NCBI RefSeq assembly: GCF_001467945.1
Contig: NZ_LNYQ01000013.1
Span: 576,626 to 640,625, forward strand
Origin: Legionella parisiensis
GTDB taxonomy: Bacteria; Pseudomonadota; Gammaproteobacteria; Legionellales; Legionellaceae
DNA: 64,000 nt
Direction of reading: 5' to 3'
The translations under genes and the position numbers were made by a program. Of the stretch, positions 29,780 through 48,030 are shown piece after piece (within the stretch, counting starts at the first letter, position 1; each line of letters opens with the position of its first letter). Under the pieces are notes generated by a model, which was given only the letters and a program-made list of their open reading frames with translations, did no database searches and was not told the DNA's origin.

Positions 29780-32254
29780 TTAGTGAGATACTTTAGTTTT
29801 TATCCATTTTTGAATTTCAGAAGTTGTTTCATCAATCACTTGAGTCATTTGCTGATATAATTTCTCCAATAAATCACATTGTCCTGATTTCCAATAACGC
29901 TCAAGATATTGGCACGCGATTTTTAAACGGATGGCACCGACGTATACCACGCCCCCCTTAATTTTATGGGCAAGTTGCAGGGTTTTTTCCCAGTCGCCTT
30001 GTGCATGTGCTTTTTTTAGAAGGGTAATATCCTCAACAAGAGAATGATGAAGCATTAGTTGGAGCATCTTACAGAGCATATCTTCTGTACCGGTAGTTTT
30101 AATTCCTTCTTTAATATCAAGTAGAGGAAATTCAGAAAGCTCAAAAAATTGTTCTTCTGTTGCGGGTGAATCTAAAACACCAAGTCCGGGAGCGATTCCT
30201 TTTTCTTTTTGTATGGAGGGAATGAATGAGTTCAAAATATCACAACAGTTTTTTTGAGTCAGTGGTTTACTAAATACTGCATTTATACCTGACTCAATGC
30301 AACGTTGCTTATTTTCTTCACCAACATGAGCTGTTAGCGCAATAATAGGGGTGTGATGGTTTTTAGCAATTTCTTGGACACGAATGTGATGGGTCACTTG
30401 ATAACCATCCATATCAGGTAACCCAATATCCATAAAAATTAAATCGTACTTGTTTTTCTTCCAGAATTGCAATGCTGATTGTCCATCAGTTGCTATATCA
30501 ACGTGACAATTACATTGATTCAACATTTCTTTTGCGATTGTTTGTGCAATGGTGTTGTCTTCAACTAATAGGATACGGTGTTTGAATAATTTTGCGGATG
30601 AATCCCGAGCTTGTTGAGTGATTGCACTATCTCGTGTAAAACTAGGAATATTAGGTTCAACAAAATCATTATCTATGCCTGTTTCATCCGCTAAAAGTGC
30701 TGTTTTTAAGGGAATGATACAGGTGAATAGTGTTCCTTTGGCAACCGTACTCTCAACATATATTTCCCCATCTAATTCATCAATAAACTGTTTGATTACT
30801 GCAAGACCTAGGCCTGCTCCTTTATAAATTCCTTTGTAGGAAGGTGTTAAGCGTTTAAATTGCAGGAAAATTTCCTGTTGTTTGTCCTTGGGAATGCCCA
30901 TGCCACTGTCTTCTACGATGAATTGAATGATGATTTCGCGATTTTCTCGTTTTGCCAGTTTAGCGGTTAATTTTACAAAGCCTGTATCTGTGAAGTTCAA
31001 TGAATTAGCAATTAGCTCGAGTAAAATTCGATGAATGCGCACAGGATCACCAATGAGGTAATTGGGAATATTTGGATCAAAATCGAATGATAAACGCAGG
31101 TGTTTTGCAGAGGCTTTGGCTTTATTAAGATTAATAACATGTTGAACGATTCGTTGTAAGACGAATTTTTTCCTAACTTTGGGCACTTCGCCAGAACTTA
31201 CATGAATTGCTTCAAGAACCTCGTCCATAAAATCAAGCAAAGCATGGCTGGATGCGACTAGATTATCCGCATATTCTTTAATCTGATCACTTTTTGCTTC
31301 AGCTTTGATGAGATCTGCAAATCCAACGATGCCAGTGAGAGGAGTGCGGATGTCATGGCGCATATTTTCAAGAAACTCTGTTTTTGCAAGGCTTGCTGCT
31401 TCGGCTTTTTCTTTTGCAATTTTGAGTTCTGCTTCAATTTTTTTGCGATCAGTGATGTTAATTGAAATACCAAGTACTCCGGTAATTTCACCTTTTTTAT
31501 TACGCATCGGAGATTTATGACTTAAAAAAATGGCATTTTTACCTTCGATTAGGGCTTTTTCTTCAATAATTTCAGTTTCACCCGTTTGCATAATATAAAG
31601 ATCATTTTGACGGAATAACGCTGCTTGATGATCACCCCATGGTAGATCAAAATCAGTTTTTCCTATAAGTTCGTAGCCAAATTGAAATCCTACACTTTGG
31701 GCCTGTCGGTTATTGCATCCCAAATACACCCCATTTTTGTCTTTCCAATAAACATGCCCTGGCATATTGGCAAGAATGTTTTCTAAAGTTGATTGTGTTC
31801 TTTCCTGGCTTGAACGCAAATCTGCTTCTTGCTTTTTACGATGGGTAATATTAAGTGAGATGCCTAGAATACCTACGACATTTCCTTGTTCATCGCGGAG
31901 AGGGGTTTTCCTAGTTAATACAACTGCTTGTTGTCCATTGGCCAATGTTCCAGTTTCTTCCAGCTCTAACGAAGAATTAAGCGCCATTACTTTTAAATCA
32001 TTATTGCGAATTGTTTCTGCAGATGCTGCCCATGGCATATCAAAATCTGTTTTTCCAATTACGGATTTCATGCCGGTCATTTCAAGCATGATGTCATTAC
32101 AACCTAGATACACCCCATTTTTGTCTTTCCAATAAATACTGCCTGGCAATTCTTTAAGAATACTTGCAAGAATAGCAGGATTTGCTTCAACGGAAGGTGG
32201 GGCAGGAGATTCCTTAGAATTACTGATTTTAATTTTAGCTTTCTTTTCTGACAT
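29780..32254 (-). CDS. Hybrid sensor histidine kinase (PAS-PAS-HisKA-HATPase-REC-Hpt)
   Basis: An 824-residue cytosolic phosphorelay protein. Two tandem PAS domains (~28-145 and ~155-275) share GSIYWKDKNGVYLGCN / GHVYWKDKNGVYLGCN and end in GILGISLNIT / GVLGISINIT, so they are duplicates. Next come a HisKA domain with MRHDIRTPL (His ~300), a HATPase with EDSGMGIPKDKQ and GAGLGLAVIKQF, and a receiver domain with IFMDIGLPDMDG (Asp ~609). The C-terminal Hpt domain carries LAHKIKGGVVYVGAIRL (His ~763). The order resembles ArcB-type kinases but without membrane helices. No partner regulator is adjacent. The PAS ligand is unknown. Confidence 0.93.
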   Translation of the reverse strand: MSEKKAKIKISNSKESPAPPSVEANPAILASILKELPGSIYWKDKNGVYLGCNDIMLEMTGMKSVIGKTDFDMPWAASAETIRNNDLKVMALNSSLELEETGTLANGQQAVVLTRKTPLRDEQGNVVGILGISLNITHRKKQEADLRSSQERTQSTLENILANMPGHVYWKDKNGVYLGCNNRQAQSVGFQFGYELIGKTDFDLPWGDHQAALFRQNDLYIMQTGETEIIEEKALIEGKNAIFLSHKSPMRNKKGEITGVLGISINITDRKKIEAELKIAKEKAEAASLAKTEFLENMRHDIRTPLTGIVGFADLIKAEAKSDQIKEYADNLVASSHALLDFMDEVLEAIHVSSGEVPKVRKKFVLQRIVQHVINLNKAKASAKHLRLSFDFDPNIPNYLIGDPVRIHRILLELIANSLNFTDTGFVKLTAKLAKRENREIIIQFIVEDSGMGIPKDKQQEIFLQFKRLTPSYKGIYKGAGLGLAVIKQFIDELDGEIYVESTVAKGTLFTCIIPLKTALLADETGIDNDFVEPNIPSFTRDSAITQQARDSSAKLFKHRILLVEDNTIAQTIAKEMLNQCNCHVDIATDGQSALQFWKKNKYDLIFMDIGLPDMDGYQVTHHIRVQEIAKNHHTPIIALTAHVGEENKQRCIESGINAVFSKPLTQKNCCDILNSFIPSIQKEKGIAPGLGVLDSPATEEQFFELSEFPLLDIKEGIKTTGTEDMLCKMLQLMLHHSLVEDITLLKKAHAQGDWEKTLQLAHKIKGGVVYVGAIRLKIACQYLERYWKSGQCDLLEKLYQQMTQVIDETTSEIQKWIKTKVSH

Positions 32255-42652: not shown

Positions 42653-43066
42653 TAATCAACAAAGGTCTTTACAATTCAACTATGTGCCGTAAGGCTTTGA
42701 TTTCCTCTGTTTCGAAACTTCCTCTTTTATATATCGTTTCATGAGGTATCGTGTAATTTTCTGATAAATCACTAAAAATTTAAAATTATATTAATCATTG
42801 ATCCCTTGCCGAGATCAACTGTATCTTCATTTATCATTTTGGGAAATTTTTTATACTTGACGAACAACATAATTTTTCCTAATATTATTTGACGAAATAA
42901 AATTTGTATATTTTTTGATCAACTAAAAAGCCGTATTTTCTTCGACTTATTTATATAAAAAAATGAATTAGTAACAGTTTATGTAGCTGTATATGTAGAA
43001 GTATATGTAGCTGTATATATAACTGTATATAAAGGATTTTTATTATTTAAATATAAGGAGATTATC
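42653..43066. other. 414-bp AT-rich leader region of the peptide cluster
   Basis: Very AT-rich, no gene. It contains the 12-bp tandem repeats (42980-43027) and ends in AAGGAG (43055-43060) before the first precursor gene. Promoters of the peptide cluster must lie here. Confidence 0.6.
42980..43027 (+). repeat. 12-bp tandem repeats upstream of the precursor gene
   Basis: Four consecutive 12-base units: TATGTAGCTGTA, TATGTAGAAGTA, TATGTAGCTGTA, TATATAACTGTA. They lie 40 bases before the precursor ATG, in the promoter/5'-leader zone. Such arrays can bind a regulator or vary in copy number and so change expression. Confidence 0.85.
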
Positions 43067-43624
43067 GTGAATCATAAAGCTATTAATGAATTAATAGATC
43101 GCGCAAAAAAAGACCCTAAATTTTTCCATTCTCTTGTCTTCGAACCCGAAAAGGTATTAGGTTCATTAGATGGTTTGGATAGACAAAGCAGAGGAAGTAT
43201 CGTCTCTTCGAATGTAGAAGCGCTTTTCGCAAACATACTTGGCCTTGAAGGGTGTGGTAATACCTGTTCTACGAGCTGCGATAATACCTGTGGTCAAAGC
43301 TGCGGATATACAACGAACATTGCTGAAGCAGCAAGGGTAAAAGGCGGAGTTTATTTTTCTCACTTTAAAGACGCGTTAGAAGGTTGCGGGAATACTTGCT
43401 CAAGCAGTTGTGATAACACTTGTGGCCAAAGCTGCGGCTACACTACCAACCTCACTCTTGAAAGGGAGAAAATGACACGGACAGCTGGCGCTGGTATGTG
43501 GGAAGGTGGTACTGCGTTGGAAGGTTGTGGTAATACGTGCAGCAGTAGTTGTGATAATACCTGCGGTCAAAGTTGCGGGTACACCACAAGCCTACAAGGA
43601 AAATTTGGTGGAAACATTCGTTAA
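43067..43624 (+). CDS. Putative RiPP (lanthipeptide-like) precursor with three core repeats
   Basis: A 185-residue peptide. Residues 1-~58 are a leader (INELIDRAKKDPKFFHSLVF then EPEKVL) shared with the next gene. Three near-identical 25-residue cores follow (residues 60-84, 104-128, 151-175), each LEGCGNTCS-[TS]-SCDNTCGQSCGYTT, separated by 19-22 residue spacers. Each core has five Cys at exact four-residue spacing, with a Ser or Thr just before four of them. This suits dehydration of Ser/Thr and thioether formation by the synthetase encoded 0.6 kb downstream. The spacers may carry cleavage sites so that one precursor yields three products. AAGGAG precedes the start. The reading as a RiPP precursor is inference from leader, core and neighbour. 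Confidence 0.8.
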   Translation: MNHKAINELIDRAKKDPKFFHSLVFEPEKVLGSLDGLDRQSRGSIVSSNVEALFANILGLEGCGNTCSTSCDNTCGQSCGYTTNIAEAARVKGGVYFSHFKDALEGCGNTCSSSCDNTCGQSCGYTTNLTLEREKMTRTAGAGMWEGGTALEGCGNTCSSSCDNTCGQSCGYTTSLQGKFGGNIR

Positions 43625-43709
43625 AATGGAACGATAAACTTGTTTGGCGAGCCAAAGTTAGGCTTGCCAAATCTTTCCTAATTGAGCAGTCGTAGCCAAG
43701 GAAGATATC

Positions 43710-44210
43710 ATGAACAAGGAACAAATTAGCAAATTGATTGATCGTGCTAAAAAAGATCCTGAGTTTTTTCATCAATTGGTGTTTGAACCAGAACAAGCAG
43801 TTAAGAAACTAAAGAGAAAATCAGGCGATGAGATTATTCTACATGCGAATCTGCAAACTATTGTGCAAGGGTTAGTTGGTAAGATTCCGCTGACAAGAAA
43901 AGATAGCAATAAAACTCCTTATTTTGATTGTCCGCAAACTTGTGGGCAAACCTGCGCGGAAAATACTTGTGGACCTACATGTGCCTTCTCGACAGATACT
44001 CAGGCAAGAATGAAGGGAAGCGTGATGGACTCAGTCAGATTTAGTGGCGGCTATTTAATATGTGACGAAAATGTGACGTGTTGTTGCACCAGTGGAACTT
44101 GTGGTAGCACTTGTGGTGGCAGTACTTGTGATGTGACTTGTTCTGGTGATAGTTGTGGTTCTACTTGTGGAGATAGTTGTGGTTACACTTCTCATCTCCA
44201 AATGCGGTAA
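43710..44210 (+). CDS. Second putative RiPP precursor, Cys-rich
   Basis: A 166-residue peptide with the same leader type (ISKLIDRAKKDPEFFHQLVF then EPEQ) as the gene 85 bases upstream. Its core is different: a first Cys block (~74-91, CPQTCGQTCAENTCGPTC), a spacer, then a denser block (~118-157, with TCCCTSGTCGSTCGGSTC and ending GDSCGYTSHL). It has 16 Cys, most preceded by Thr or Ser. It shares the closing SCGYT with the first precursor. The synthetase gene starts 31 bases later, so the three are probably one operon. Confidence 0.8.
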   Translation: MNKEQISKLIDRAKKDPEFFHQLVFEPEQAVKKLKRKSGDEIILHANLQTIVQGLVGKIPLTRKDSNKTPYFDCPQTCGQTCAENTCGPTCAFSTDTQARMKGSVMDSVRFSGGYLICDENVTCCCTSGTCGSTCGGSTCDVTCSGDSCGSTCGDSCGYTSHLQMR

Positions 44211-44241
44211 AAAAAATAGACGAATCCGTTAGGGAACAATT

Positions 44242-47010
44242 ATGGCATATATTGAACAAGTTAAAGATCATAATAATTCTTTAGATGACAGTGCAAAAGA
44301 TGTTGATTATGCAGATTATCTACGCTCTTTTGCACTGGAACCCGAATTACGTGGTCCTTGGGCATCTGTTGGCAAAACTGAGCGAATACAGGGTTGGAAA
44401 TTACATATTTCTACCATACCCGGAGAGGCCATTCAATTATTGAACTCCGTTATTCCTTGCCTTTTAAGGCATAAAGTCCCTTCTTTTAAAATTGCAAGGG
44501 ATACCATGACTTTAGGCTATCTCAATGAAGGGGAGTTGGGCAGGACTCAAATAGGTAAATTTATGACGATTTACCCTAGGGATGACAAGCAGGCCGTACA
44601 ATTAGCCGAAGAGCTTGTTCAATTAACTCACGGTATGCTCGGCCCGCGCATCATCTCAGATATGCGTTTAGGTGATATCGTTTATACGAGATATGGCGGC
44701 TTTAATCCGATTATCAAACGAGATCGTTTAGGATTAATACGGCTTATGATCTATGCCCCAGATCAATCACTACGAATTGATGAATATCAAGTTCCATTCC
44801 GATCTCCTGAGGGTGTAGAAAACCCATATAAAGATTGGCGTCTTGAGTTAACACAGAATGATAATTTGTCTGAGTCTGTGCACATTGTTGATGGAAAACC
44901 AACCAAATTATTTGGTCCTGGTTATTTAATTTTGGAGGTACTGCGCGATCAACCTAAGGGCGGGGTTTATAAAGTATTGGATTTACGTTGCCAAGATTCT
45001 GTCGGATTAAAAGTTCTTAAGCAGGGCAAACAATTCTGTATGACTGACCATTACAATAGAGATATGCGCACCCGATTACAACGGCAGGCTGAATTGCACG
45101 CTAATTTGAGCCAACATCTTCCTGTTCCTTCCGCGGATGCTTACTTTGAAGTCGAAGGGGATGGTTATTTACCGCTAGAGTGGGTGGAAGGGAAGAGCAT
45201 TGAAACATTTGCAGTGCAAACTTTAGAGGGGTCTAGCTTTGGCACTCTCCCACTCGATAAGAAAATGTTATTGCTTAATTGGTGCCAAAAGCTTATAGGC
45301 GTTGTAAGCCAACTTCATAAGCAAGGCTATGTACACCGCGACTTAACTGCATCCAATATTTGGCTTGCAGAGAATGGCGAGCTTTATTTGCTTGATTTAG
45401 AACTATGCCATGCTTTAGATGATCTGTCTCCAGCTTTTGGACTTGGCACTGCGGGTTTTATGTCTCCCCAACAAGCAAATAGAGAAGCCCCTGCGATAGC
45501 TGATGATTTATATGCTATTGGATGCCTATTGTTGTTAGTTTTAACCGGTATCGATCCACGTCGCATTGTCCGTAGCAATAATGACAATTTGCTCGCTTGT
45601 TTACAAGAAATAACCCAGGCTGCTCCGTTACCATTACTGGAAATTGTAATAGATTGTGTTAGTAGTGACCCAGCAATACGTCCTTCACTTGAAGCAATTT
45701 CTTCTGTGTTGGCTCAGTCAATCTCAGAGATAAAGCCCAGAGGTGCGGTAACAAAAAATCCGAAGAAAACATTGTTAACTCAAGAAGAAATACAAAATAC
45801 ATTGATAGAGGGGACTCGAGGTTTATTACAATCTGGTGCTATTCAATCTGAAGCGGGTCTTTGGTTATCGATATCCATAGAAAATGGAGCGCAACATCAA
45901 ATAAAACACCGCTACAGTCAGCAATATGAATTTCGACGAAGTGCAAATCGCGGTGTGGCTGGGGTCGTTTATGCCTTGAGCCGCTTAGCTCACTTTGGAT
46001 TTTTGCCTCCAGAAGGCAAGTTGAGAATTCAGCAGGCTATAAATTGGTTGATTTCAGATCAATATACCGTTGATGGGGAACTGCCCGGATTACACTTTGG
46101 TACCGCAGGCGTTGGTGTTGCTTTGACGGAGGCGATATCAACTGGTATTCAAAATTCCGATGAATCGTTAATTAAAATGATTCATACGTGTTTGAATAAA
46201 ACTGTAGATTGGCCTGATGTCACTCATGGTGCTGCTGGCCAGGGAATAGCAGCCATGTATTGTTTCGATCGTTTGGGCATACCGTCCTTTCAAGAAAATG
46301 TAGAACAGTGTGTTGATTATTTAGTTACCAATCAGCTGGCTGATGGTTCCTGGATTATGCCAGAAGGTGTACCTGGAATGTCAGGAGAAATTTTATCTGG
46401 TTTTGCTCATGGAGTTGCAGGTATTGCTTACTTTTTAACTGAATTTTCTGCGCGAGAAAATGATAATGCTGCATGGACAAGTGCTCTACGTGCAATCAAT
46501 TGGCTGCAGCAACAGGCAATTCATCAACAAGTAGGTGAAGATTCTCTACTCCTGTGGACCTACAGTACAAAAAATCCTGCCAGGTGGCGTTGGTGGTGTC
46601 ATGGCGGCCCGGGTATTGCATTGACCTATTTACGACTATACGAGTTGACCGGTGATAAAAAGTACGCAGATTTAGCTCGCCAAGCATTAAAAATTCATCC
46701 TATTAATTTACGCTACCCTAATTTTAGTCAATGTCATGGGCTAAGTGGATTAGGAGATATTTATTTGGAGGCGTTTCGTATATTAGATGATGAGGAATGG
46801 CTCGAGAGAGCGGCATTTGTAGCGAAATTTCTATATGCAATGAGACAAACAACGGAAACAGGGGCGTATTACTGGTTAACTGAAGATCCTCATGTTGCCA
46901 CTGCAGATTTGATGGTTGGAAGTTCTGGAATTCTGCATTTTTTCTTACGGTTACTCCATCAAGGCAAACAAATAGGGGTACCTTTATTGCTGAATCCAGT
47001 AAATAAATAA
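44242..47010 (+). CDS. Lanthipeptide synthetase, lyase-kinase-LanC type (LanKC/LanL-like)
   Basis: A 922-residue three-part enzyme. The N-terminal ~1-220 resembles the phosphoSer/Thr lyase region of class III/IV synthetases (GWKLHISTIPGEAIQLL, IGKFMTIYP, LGDIVYTRYGGF). A protein kinase domain (~225-500) has GGVYKVLD, VGLKVLK, VHRDLTASNIW (Asp ~367) and LLDLELCHAL in place of DFG. The C-terminal cyclase (~515-910) keeps the LanC zinc ligands: WWCHGGPG (Cys ~786) and CHGLSG (Cys ~831, His ~832). Such enzymes phosphorylate core Ser/Thr, eliminate phosphate and add Cys thiols to form lanthionine rings. Full zinc ligands favour the class IV (LanL) side. No transporter or protease gene lies next to it. 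Confidence 0.88.
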   Translation: MAYIEQVKDHNNSLDDSAKDVDYADYLRSFALEPELRGPWASVGKTERIQGWKLHISTIPGEAIQLLNSVIPCLLRHKVPSFKIARDTMTLGYLNEGELGRTQIGKFMTIYPRDDKQAVQLAEELVQLTHGMLGPRIISDMRLGDIVYTRYGGFNPIIKRDRLGLIRLMIYAPDQSLRIDEYQVPFRSPEGVENPYKDWRLELTQNDNLSESVHIVDGKPTKLFGPGYLILEVLRDQPKGGVYKVLDLRCQDSVGLKVLKQGKQFCMTDHYNRDMRTRLQRQAELHANLSQHLPVPSADAYFEVEGDGYLPLEWVEGKSIETFAVQTLEGSSFGTLPLDKKMLLLNWCQKLIGVVSQLHKQGYVHRDLTASNIWLAENGELYLLDLELCHALDDLSPAFGLGTAGFMSPQQANREAPAIADDLYAIGCLLLLVLTGIDPRRIVRSNNDNLLACLQEITQAAPLPLLEIVIDCVSSDPAIRPSLEAISSVLAQSISEIKPRGAVTKNPKKTLLTQEEIQNTLIEGTRGLLQSGAIQSEAGLWLSISIENGAQHQIKHRYSQQYEFRRSANRGVAGVVYALSRLAHFGFLPPEGKLRIQQAINWLISDQYTVDGELPGLHFGTAGVGVALTEAISTGIQNSDESLIKMIHTCLNKTVDWPDVTHGAAGQGIAAMYCFDRLGIPSFQENVEQCVDYLVTNQLADGSWIMPEGVPGMSGEILSGFAHGVAGIAYFLTEFSARENDNAAWTSALRAINWLQQQAIHQQVGEDSLLLWTYSTKNPARWRWWCHGGPGIALTYLRLYELTGDKKYADLARQALKIHPINLRYPNFSQCHGLSGLGDIYLEAFRILDDEEWLERAAFVAKFLYAMRQTTETGAYYWLTEDPHVATADLMVGSSGILHFFLRLLHQGKQIGVPLLLNPVNK

Positions 47011-47021
47011 GGAGATTAATG

Positions 47022-47411
47022 ATGAATAACCCACAGTTTGGTGAATTTTGTTGGAATGAATTGGTTACTCCTAATGTCATCGCTGCGAAAGAGTTTTATA
47101 GACATGTATTAGGTTGGCAATATACTGAAGAAGCCGTAGGCGATATGATCTACACTCTATTTAGAACGAGCACGGGTGATCAATCAATAGGCGGGATCTT
47201 GGAAATACCCAAAGATAAACAAGATAAAATCCCACCTCATTGGATGGGGTATATTTTGGTAGAAAATCTGGAGGATACATTAGCCAAAGCAATCAAGCAT
47301 GGTGCAACAGTAAAAGTTTCAGTGACTAAAGCGGGCGATTTTGGTTTATTTGCAGTTGTTGTCGATCCGACTGGTGCTCACATCGCACTTTGGCAATCAT
47401 TAAAAAGTTAA
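47022..47411 (+). CDS. VOC-family (glyoxalase/bleomycin-resistance-like) protein
   Basis: A 129-residue vicinal-oxygen-chelate fold protein: FCWNELVTPNVIAAKEFYRH, VLGWQY, PPHWMGYILVENLEDTLAKA, and FGLFAVVVDPTGAHIALWQS. It has the betaalphabetabetabeta module order of small VOC proteins. It follows the synthetase by 11 bases with GGAG (47011-47014), so it is co-transcribed. A role in modifying or protecting against the peptide product is possible, but VOC proteins are diverse and it may be unrelated. An ATG at 47019 is one codon earlier. Confidence 0.85.
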   Translation: MNNPQFGEFCWNELVTPNVIAAKEFYRHVLGWQYTEEAVGDMIYTLFRTSTGDQSIGGILEIPKDKQDKIPPHWMGYILVENLEDTLAKAIKHGATVKVSVTKAGDFGLFAVVVDPTGAHIALWQSLKS

Positions 47412-47478
47412 AATGCTTTGCAGCCGTTAAAGTGGCTTTAGGAACAGAAAAGATTTTGAATATCTTTAATTTTACGCA

Positions 47479-47731
47479 CTAGAATTTAACTTCGTGGTCA
47501 CCAAATGATCCGATCGATCCTCCATCAACTGGGATAATTGTACCTGTTATGGAGTCCGAGCCAGTTGAGGAGAGAAAACTTACATCCATGGTGAGTGACA
47601 TGAGATCATGTTTTTGGGCTTTTCCTGATTTCGACCGCAAACAATTACTTGTGCTTTAGCATTTCGTAAGGCGAGTGCCATGGCAAGACCCCACCATTTC
47701 TGCCTGTGATGAAAGCAACACAATGATTCAT
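47479..47731 (-). pseudogene. Short-chain dehydrogenase/reductase remnant
   Basis: The minus strand starts MNHCVAFITGRNGG (SDR N-terminus), shifts frame to GLAMALALRNAKAQVIVCGR (the Rossmann helix and NADP-side strand), and then jumps to FLSSTGSDSITGTIIPVDGG followed by SIGSFGDHEVKF and a TAG at 47481-47479, the usual SDR C-terminus. The catalytic middle (~150 residues with YxxxK) is deleted and at least two frameshifts are present, so it is dead. Confidence 0.85.
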
Positions 47732-47732
47732 A

Positions 47733-48030
47733 TTATCTTTTGATTTCATAAGGATCATGCTCCTTTTTGATGGCAGTTAAGAATGCATCCAGATCTTCTT
47801 TTTCCAATGTCAGTGAAAGTGCAATATCAATATAGGATTGAATGTTTCTAAAACTGTCAGGATAAAGATAGGGATTTCGTGTTTTGCACCATTCTTAAAT
47901 AAATAGGCCCAGTCCCTAAATCTGCGAACATTGATTAGTGAGGTCTCCAAGAGCCTTGGTATCTATTCCCTCTGCAGTAAGTGCTTCAGCAAACCAGCAA
48001 CAGTCATCAATTGTGCCATCTCAAATATAT
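47733..48030 (-). pseudogene. Remnant of an unidentified gene next to the SDR fossil
   Basis: On the minus strand, CCWFAEALTAEGIDTKALGD and then LTNQCSQI read like coding sequence, followed by a stop and a frame change. After that NPYLYPDSFRNIQSYIDIAL continues as SLTLEKEDLDAFLTAIKKEH and DPYEIKR to a TAA at 47735-47733. The gene is frameshifted and lacks its N-terminus. I do not recognise the family. It would have been upstream of the SDR gene in the same operon. Confidence 0.6.

Follow-up and report, generated by a model that had tools for sequence, protein, structure and literature searches.

A candidate class IV-like lanthipeptide cassette with multi-core, cysteine-array precursors in Legionella parisiensis and its relatives

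We have analysed a stretch of 64,000 nt from the 4.17-Mb genome of Legionella parisiensis (contig NZ_LNYQ01000013.1; this whole stretch is called the window below) that carries a unit of four genes on the + strand: two precursor genes, A (43067–43624) and B (43710–44210), a gene for a synthetase (44242–47010) and a gene for a glyoxalase-fold protein (47019–47411). We consider the unit real and probably a so far undescribed form of class IV-like lanthipeptide biosynthesis; its product is probably a ring-shaped peptide of a new type. We consider it very likely that the genes form a dedicated cassette for a lanthipeptide-type ribosomally synthesized and post-translationally modified peptide (RiPP), with a synthetase that would bind, dehydrate and cyclize its precursors. 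This reading is drawn from the domains and catalytic residues of the synthetase, the co-occurrence of precursors and synthetase, the conservation of the leader, the ratios of nonsynonymous to synonymous substitution rates (dN/dS) and the grammar of the Cys arrays. A more specific proposal, which we put forward tentatively and as somewhat short of probable, is that the precursors are multi-core, that each core would become a ladder of small thioether rings, every one of them joining a Cys to a dehydroalanine or dehydrobutyrine (Dha/Dhb) farther downstream, and that a zinc-dependent class IV-like enzyme makes them in Gammaproteobacteria, Alphaproteobacteria and Chloroflexota.

Precursor A (185 aa, read from a GTG start) has a leader at approximately aa 1–62 followed by three cores, at 43253–43318 (aa 63–84; CGNT-CSTS-CDNT-CGQS-CGYT-TN), 43385–43450 (aa 107–128) and 43526–43591 (aa 154–175). 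The start codon of A is GTG in four and ATG in three of the seven Legionella sequences. Precursor B (166 aa) has a leader of the same type, at approximately aa 1–73, and two arrays, one with five Cys at 43929–43994 (aa 74–95) and one with eleven Cys at 44061–44192 (aa 118–161). An earlier note, made from the letters of this stretch without database searches, had described two adjacent precursor open reading frames (ORFs) with one leader, and both ORFs and the common leader (LIDRAKKDPKFFHSLVFEPE in A, LIDRAKKDPEFFHQLVFEPE in B) are indeed present. The leader motif, approximately D-P-x-F-F-H-x-L-V-F-x-P-E, recurs with few changes in A and B genes across two phyla; the leader would be the part recognized by the synthetase. 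The three cores of A, the fourth gene of the unit and the grammar described next go beyond what that note had seen.

The arrays, by which we mean runs of at least two Cys spaced no more than six residues apart (lone Cys excluded), follow the grammar C-x2-4-[S/T], with Ser/Thr directly before the next Cys. In six representatives of the 19 precursors, chosen so that near-copies were avoided (W_A, W_B, Chl_A, Chl_B, Hae_A and ani_C), Ser/Thr ends every one of the 53 closed units that are at least three residues long. Among 20,000 permutations the highest count was 37 units, Ser/Thr making up 79 of the 171 non-Cys residues. Units shorter than three residues were excluded (three in the representatives, within CCC and CSC of B genes). 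Over all 19 precursors the count is 202 of 203; the one unit that deviates is CLKGD, from the PC1000 solo precursor. The arrays also open and close in a characteristic way: none of the 11 arrays has Ser/Thr directly before its first Cys, and in nine of them the preceding four residues are free of Ser/Thr; in all 11, Ser/Thr follows the last Cys at +3 or +4. Lone Cys residues were found once in Chl_B, within CGET, and once in each of two solo precursors, there partnerless. A six-frame scan of the window detected five arrays of this grammar, all within A and B. No such array was found by the same scan in 16 further loci that carry related synthetase or kinase genes (seven distant Chloroflexota loci, L039, L041, L050–L055 and L091), most loci with a distant synthetase being only 4–7 kb long, so that a precursor lying farther away could be missed.

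Selection on the precursors was estimated from seven Legionella sequences with all pairs pooled, the pairs not being independent. For A, dN/dS is 0.013 in the cores, 0.09 in the leader and 0.24 in spacers and tail; for B it is 0.20 in the leader, 0.12 in array 1, 0.54 in the linker and 0.02 in array 2; the value for the synthetase is 0.13. The A cores are thus under strong purifying selection. Among the three cores within A of the window, synonymous sites are saturated (proportion of synonymous differences 0.91–1.12) while the proportion of nonsynonymous differences is 0.03–0.08; by these values the cores look like old copies held alike at the peptide level.

The earlier note had placed, 31 bases after the precursors, a 922-aa protein with lyase, kinase and LanC domains and all three zinc ligands. 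The gap and the ORF are as described, and the three domains each score over their Pfam cut-offs: RamC_N (lyase; 44368–44826, aa 43–195), Pkinase (44959–45699, aa 240–486) and LANC_like (cyclase; 45949–46968, aa 570–909). The zinc ligands C786, C831 and H832 are kept in nine of nine family members and in both LanL references and are missing from all three LanKC references; the cyclase also has H723. In the lyase, K53, H55, K83 and Y111 are invariant in the nine members. By motif and position, not by alignment to VenL, they correspond to Lys51, His53, Arg83 and Tyr108, the lyase residues named for that enzyme (PMC2843593), VenL having Arg where the family has K83. The kinase residues (HRD, N372, D385 and DLE) are likewise invariant in 9/9. 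DLE is shared with 2/2 LanL references, vs DFE in 3/3 LanKC references. The highest-scoring solved structure is 8car (137 bits); its entry names a Ser/Thr protein kinase, and we take it to be a class IV enzyme.

The protein matches the LanL model NF038150 over residues 40–910 with 511.9 bits and the LanKC model NF038151 with 307.7 bits. Because of this near full-length LanL match, the zinc ligands and the DLE motif, the synthetase is best classified, on its sequence features, as class IV-like, in a clade of its own and outside the LanL cut-off. The class III reading was rejected on the zinc ligands, DLE and the LanKC score (307.7 vs a cut-off of 575 bits). The earlier assignment to class III/IV is thereby narrowed, with the qualification that the NCBIfam equivalog cut-off for LanL is 650 bits. 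In a midpoint-rooted tree of 22 synthetases, 12 of which have deviant composition, the nine members group together with support of 100/100; their neighbours are Chloroflexota synthetases, and the two LanL references and the LanKC references lie apart.

Precursors and synthetase occur together. The synthetase was found in seven of 143 Legionellaceae genomes and Cys-array precursors in the same seven; an eighth match of the precursor search (G056, E-value 8e-4) is an ORF without Cys and was not counted, and none of the 136 genomes lacking the synthetase has a Cys-array precursor. With the A profile at 1e-5, no precursor was found in the other 348 of 349 Pseudomonadota genomes, the single match being the genome of the window itself; of the 380 Chloroflexota genomes searched, the 379 other than that of locus L035 likewise gave none (the Legionellaceae, Pseudomonadota and Chloroflexota sets overlap in the genome of the window). 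A wide spread of precursors without a synthetase, which the earlier note had named as evidence that would speak against it, was not seen in these three sets. Two carriers have an additional solo precursor. The synthetase profile at 1e-80 matched one of 369 genomes of the class, that of the window, and seven of 400 Chloroflexota genomes, namely that of L035 and six others with seven matches. A scan of 84,980 species gave eight loci, six in named Legionella, L035 (49%) and L036 (39%); its queries were six exact 8-residue peptides from the synthetase, so that it mostly picks up close relatives. The cassette is rare and scattered.

The proposed mechanism can be laid out as follows. The synthetase would bind the leader common to A and B; its kinase would phosphorylate Ser/Thr of the arrays and its lyase eliminate the phosphate to give Dha/Dhb, as the domains and conserved residues suggest; and the zinc-bearing LanC domain would add Cys thiols to Dha/Dhb to form (methyl)lanthionines. 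If the phase of the arrays is a guide, each Cys would react with the Dha/Dhb that lies three or four residues downstream of it, and the outcome would be a non-overlapping ladder of small rings, five per A core with three cores per precursor. A protease encoded outside the unit might then cut the variable spacers. Export would probably proceed through the neighbouring ABC-2 exporter in Chloroflexota and, as a guess, through an unlinked route or not at all in Legionella.

The direction of ring closure is the step at which the readings part. When each Cys of the six representatives was paired with its nearest Ser/Thr at a distance of 3–6, a downstream partner was found for 68 of 69 Cys and an upstream one for 51 of 69; in A of the window the numbers are 15/15 and 10/15. 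Ser/Thr stands at +3 of 59/69 Cys vs at −3 of 12/69. That arrays open on Cys and end on Ser/Thr favours downstream closure, against the common direction, and we judge the case for each Cys closing to the Ser/Thr three or four residues downstream to be about evenly balanced. Single Cys-first rings are known from prochlorosins 1.1 and 2.8 (Cys3/Thr7 and Cys3/Ser9; PMC10306099), and a study of mersacidin varied the direction of rings (PMC9486960). The same cassette may, however, use the common direction, with Cys adding to Dha/Dhb three or more residues upstream, rings overlapping and some Cys left free or in disulfides; we regard this as possible though doubtful. An upstream pairing rule is reported to fit 92 of 100 known lanthipeptides (PMC11251773), the seven Cys of four annotated class III/IV control precursors find an upstream partner in 7/7 and a downstream one in 5/7, and Ser/Thr stands at −5 of 38/69 Cys, so that overlapping forward rings could form for many. 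The family differs in pairing from those few controls, and upstream closure both leaves more Cys without a partner in the counts above and leaves the Cys-first, Ser/Thr-last arrays unexplained. Besides the known rule, the controls and the −5 positions, several further points weigh against our proposal of downstream ladders or against the lanthipeptide reading beneath it. Both family models score under their curated cut-offs; the solo precursors break the grammar (a partnerless Cys in each of L027 and L028, and CLKGD in L028); and a test of Ser codon classes gave no support, with 0 of 19 invariant Ser columns.

The other alternatives concern whether rings are made at all. Dehydration with few or no rings, leaving thiol-rich products such as metal-binding or disulfide-bonded peptides, would suit Cys-rich repeats at fixed spacing, and the rings are predicted only; yet the LanC domain has its complete zinc ligands in all nine members and Ser/Thr is conserved as strictly as Cys, and we think this outcome unlikely. 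It is very improbable that the precursors are Cys-Xaa3 repeat peptides of the radical S-adenosylmethionine (SAM) type with the synthetase an incidental neighbour. The model TIGR04117 does match seven of eight A precursors (best E-value 1.4e-4), but below its cut-off (21 vs 50 bits, in L029) and through the spacing of Cys, the four-gene unit encodes no radical SAM protein, and the precursors co-occur with the synthetase. The radical SAM reading was dropped on the low score and the missing gene. The strict Cys-first grammar makes the direction of the rings, normally difficult to foresee, cleanly testable.

Gene order is the same in six of six named Legionella relatives fetched, and the extent of the unit can be read from comparison of window positions 30001–60000 with other loci. 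The block common with L. gratiana (L032) and Fluoribacter gormanii (L033) is 43028–47413, and that common with L. longbeachae (L031) is 43008–47405, both on the + strand. The flanks of these three loci have no match to the compared part of the window, all matches falling inside 43008–47413. The conserved block starts just 5′ of gene A and ends at the glyoxalase-fold gene. Flanks of the window are wholly or partly common to L. bozemanae, L. anisa and PC1000, and the window synthetase has 94% identity to its L. bozemanae counterpart. Since the block is kept where the flanks are unrelated, the four genes stand together in at least two unrelated surroundings. The GC content of the unit (40–43%, vs 32–41% in surrounding 1-kb steps) is too small a contrast to argue from.

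The glyoxalase-fold gene belongs to the unit, as the shared block ends with it in three Legionella species; it directly follows the synthetase gene in six of six other Legionella loci. Its 130-aa product, of the vicinal oxygen chelate (VOC) type, scores over the Pfam cut-off for PF00903. Its nearest NCBIfam model is the AfsK-binding protein KbpA (45 bits vs a cut-off of 250), and its nearest solved structure is Rv0577 (105.8 bits). Related proteins are encoded in 61 of 134 Legionellaceae genomes, so this protein is not specific to the cassette; among the matches listed, five genomes with the cassette (G000, G053, G058, G059 and G060) have a second copy elsewhere, at ∼53–56% identity. One could guess that the protein binds the product or the kinase.

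Outside Legionella, the 16.5-kb contig of a Chloroflexota metagenome-assembled genome (L035) carries A, B, the synthetase, an ABC ATPase (PF00005) and an ABC-2 permease (PF06182), in that order, and, past the permease, one more ORF whose second half looks membrane-like. In the alphaproteobacterium Haematobacter massiliensis (L036), and likewise on a strain OT1 plasmid (L040), the gene just before the synthetase is an A-like precursor that has two cores. The idea of a lanthipeptide-type cassette with a new core type is borne out, as a prediction, by domains, catalytic residues, gene order and precursor conservation, and the family extends beyond Legionella to Chloroflexota and Alphaproteobacteria. 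The absence of an adjacent transporter or protease, also claimed earlier, holds for the four-gene unit and for its neighbours as judged by eye (not all of them searched against families), but not for the Chloroflexota locus with its ABC-2 exporter. PF06182, the permease family of that locus and the sole exporter or protease family searched, was found in none of 45 genomes of the genus. Among plasmids, a precursor was found only in Haematobacter, a match in Salipiger being a shorter kinase gene; viral contigs gave no precursor and one partial, distant synthetase (26%, L091).

Several further observations were made around the precursors. A third precursor, solo and with an open frame, is present in both L. 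anisa and PC1000, away from the synthetase. In both regions (L092:5281–7338 and L093:5030–6940) an ORF of ∼441–459 aa follows it, and the two genes tested among those that follow it in L. anisa had no Pfam or NCBIfam match (the 441–459-aa ORF tested at 0.01). The genome of the window holds a broken precursor relative elsewhere (G000, contig C13, 1779995–1780363) with five in-frame stops over the match. Just 5′ of A, at 42972–43030, lie imperfect 12-bp tandem repeats, ∼4 copies of TATGTAGCTGTA; similar but differing repeats precede A in L. bozemanae (L029), L034 and L030, with little or none in L032 and L033, and they are possibly regulatory. Behind the cassette, at 47485–48021, the window lacks parts of a L. 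bozemanae stretch with ORFs of 251, 429 and 203 aa, only pieces of which match. Distant Chloroflexota synthetases are adjoined by short ORFs of another precursor type (L044:569–817; L048:12–1219, where four are consecutive) that have, as judged by eye only, Nif11-like leaders and small Cys/Ser/Thr-containing ends.

Most reports of LanKC and LanL enzymes come from Actinobacteria and Firmicutes (PMC7268733), and the present family occurs in three groups besides these. The same survey dropped ORFs longer than 120 aa, so that precursors as long as those of the cassette would be missed. Class IV products from Chondromyces and Streptomyces and a graspetide of Legionella pneumophila are listed in PMC9576775. 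An antiSMASH survey of Legionella that included L. parisiensis extracted lantipeptide clusters (PMC5126622), and its supplement may list this locus. Among the matches listed in searches of open-licence papers on Legionella lanthipeptides or RiPPs, class IV, NHLP leaders, ring direction and multi-core precursors, no description of the family was found, nor any report of cores made up entirely of Cys-to-downstream rings. According to PMC13343206, multi-core precursors were unreported for lanthipeptides as of 2026; going by that source, the A precursors would, if the proposal is true, be the first. Another peptide, type III-associated and carrying a 15-mer repeat (PMC11251773), may be a partial precedent.

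Compared with known systems, the family stands closest to LanL (NF038150; VenL), with which it shares the lyase-kinase-LanC order, the near full-length match, the zinc ligands and DLE; it differs in falling below the cut-off (511.9 vs 650 bits) and in forming its own clade, and its precursors are 143–185 aa long and come in gene pairs or with several cores, in contrast to the 39-aa class IV precursors annotated in L050. LanKC (NF038151; ThurKC) has the same domain order and the RamC_N domain but not the zinc ligands, in keeping with their reported absence from class III cyclases (PMC10604976). A LanM/YcaO system with an NHLP precursor rich in Cys is known (PMC10676384), and the present leader weakly resembles the NHLP/Os1348 clan (best E-value 4.3e-5, for the Chloroflexota B); all matches to the leader families NF038399 and TIGR03793 are nevertheless below cut-off (23.5 vs 40 and 12.6 vs 50.9 bits), and A of the window matches neither model. 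The radical SAM targets TIGR04117, TIGR04114 and TIGR04118 share Cys at every fourth residue, but the precursors score below these cut-offs and the unit has no radical SAM gene. Prochlorosins 1.1 and 2.8 demonstrate that Cys-to-downstream closure does occur, though with a class II enzyme, as one Cys-first ring beside a second ring of the common direction and without a multi-core array; the ladders proposed here would extend such closure to every ring of a core.
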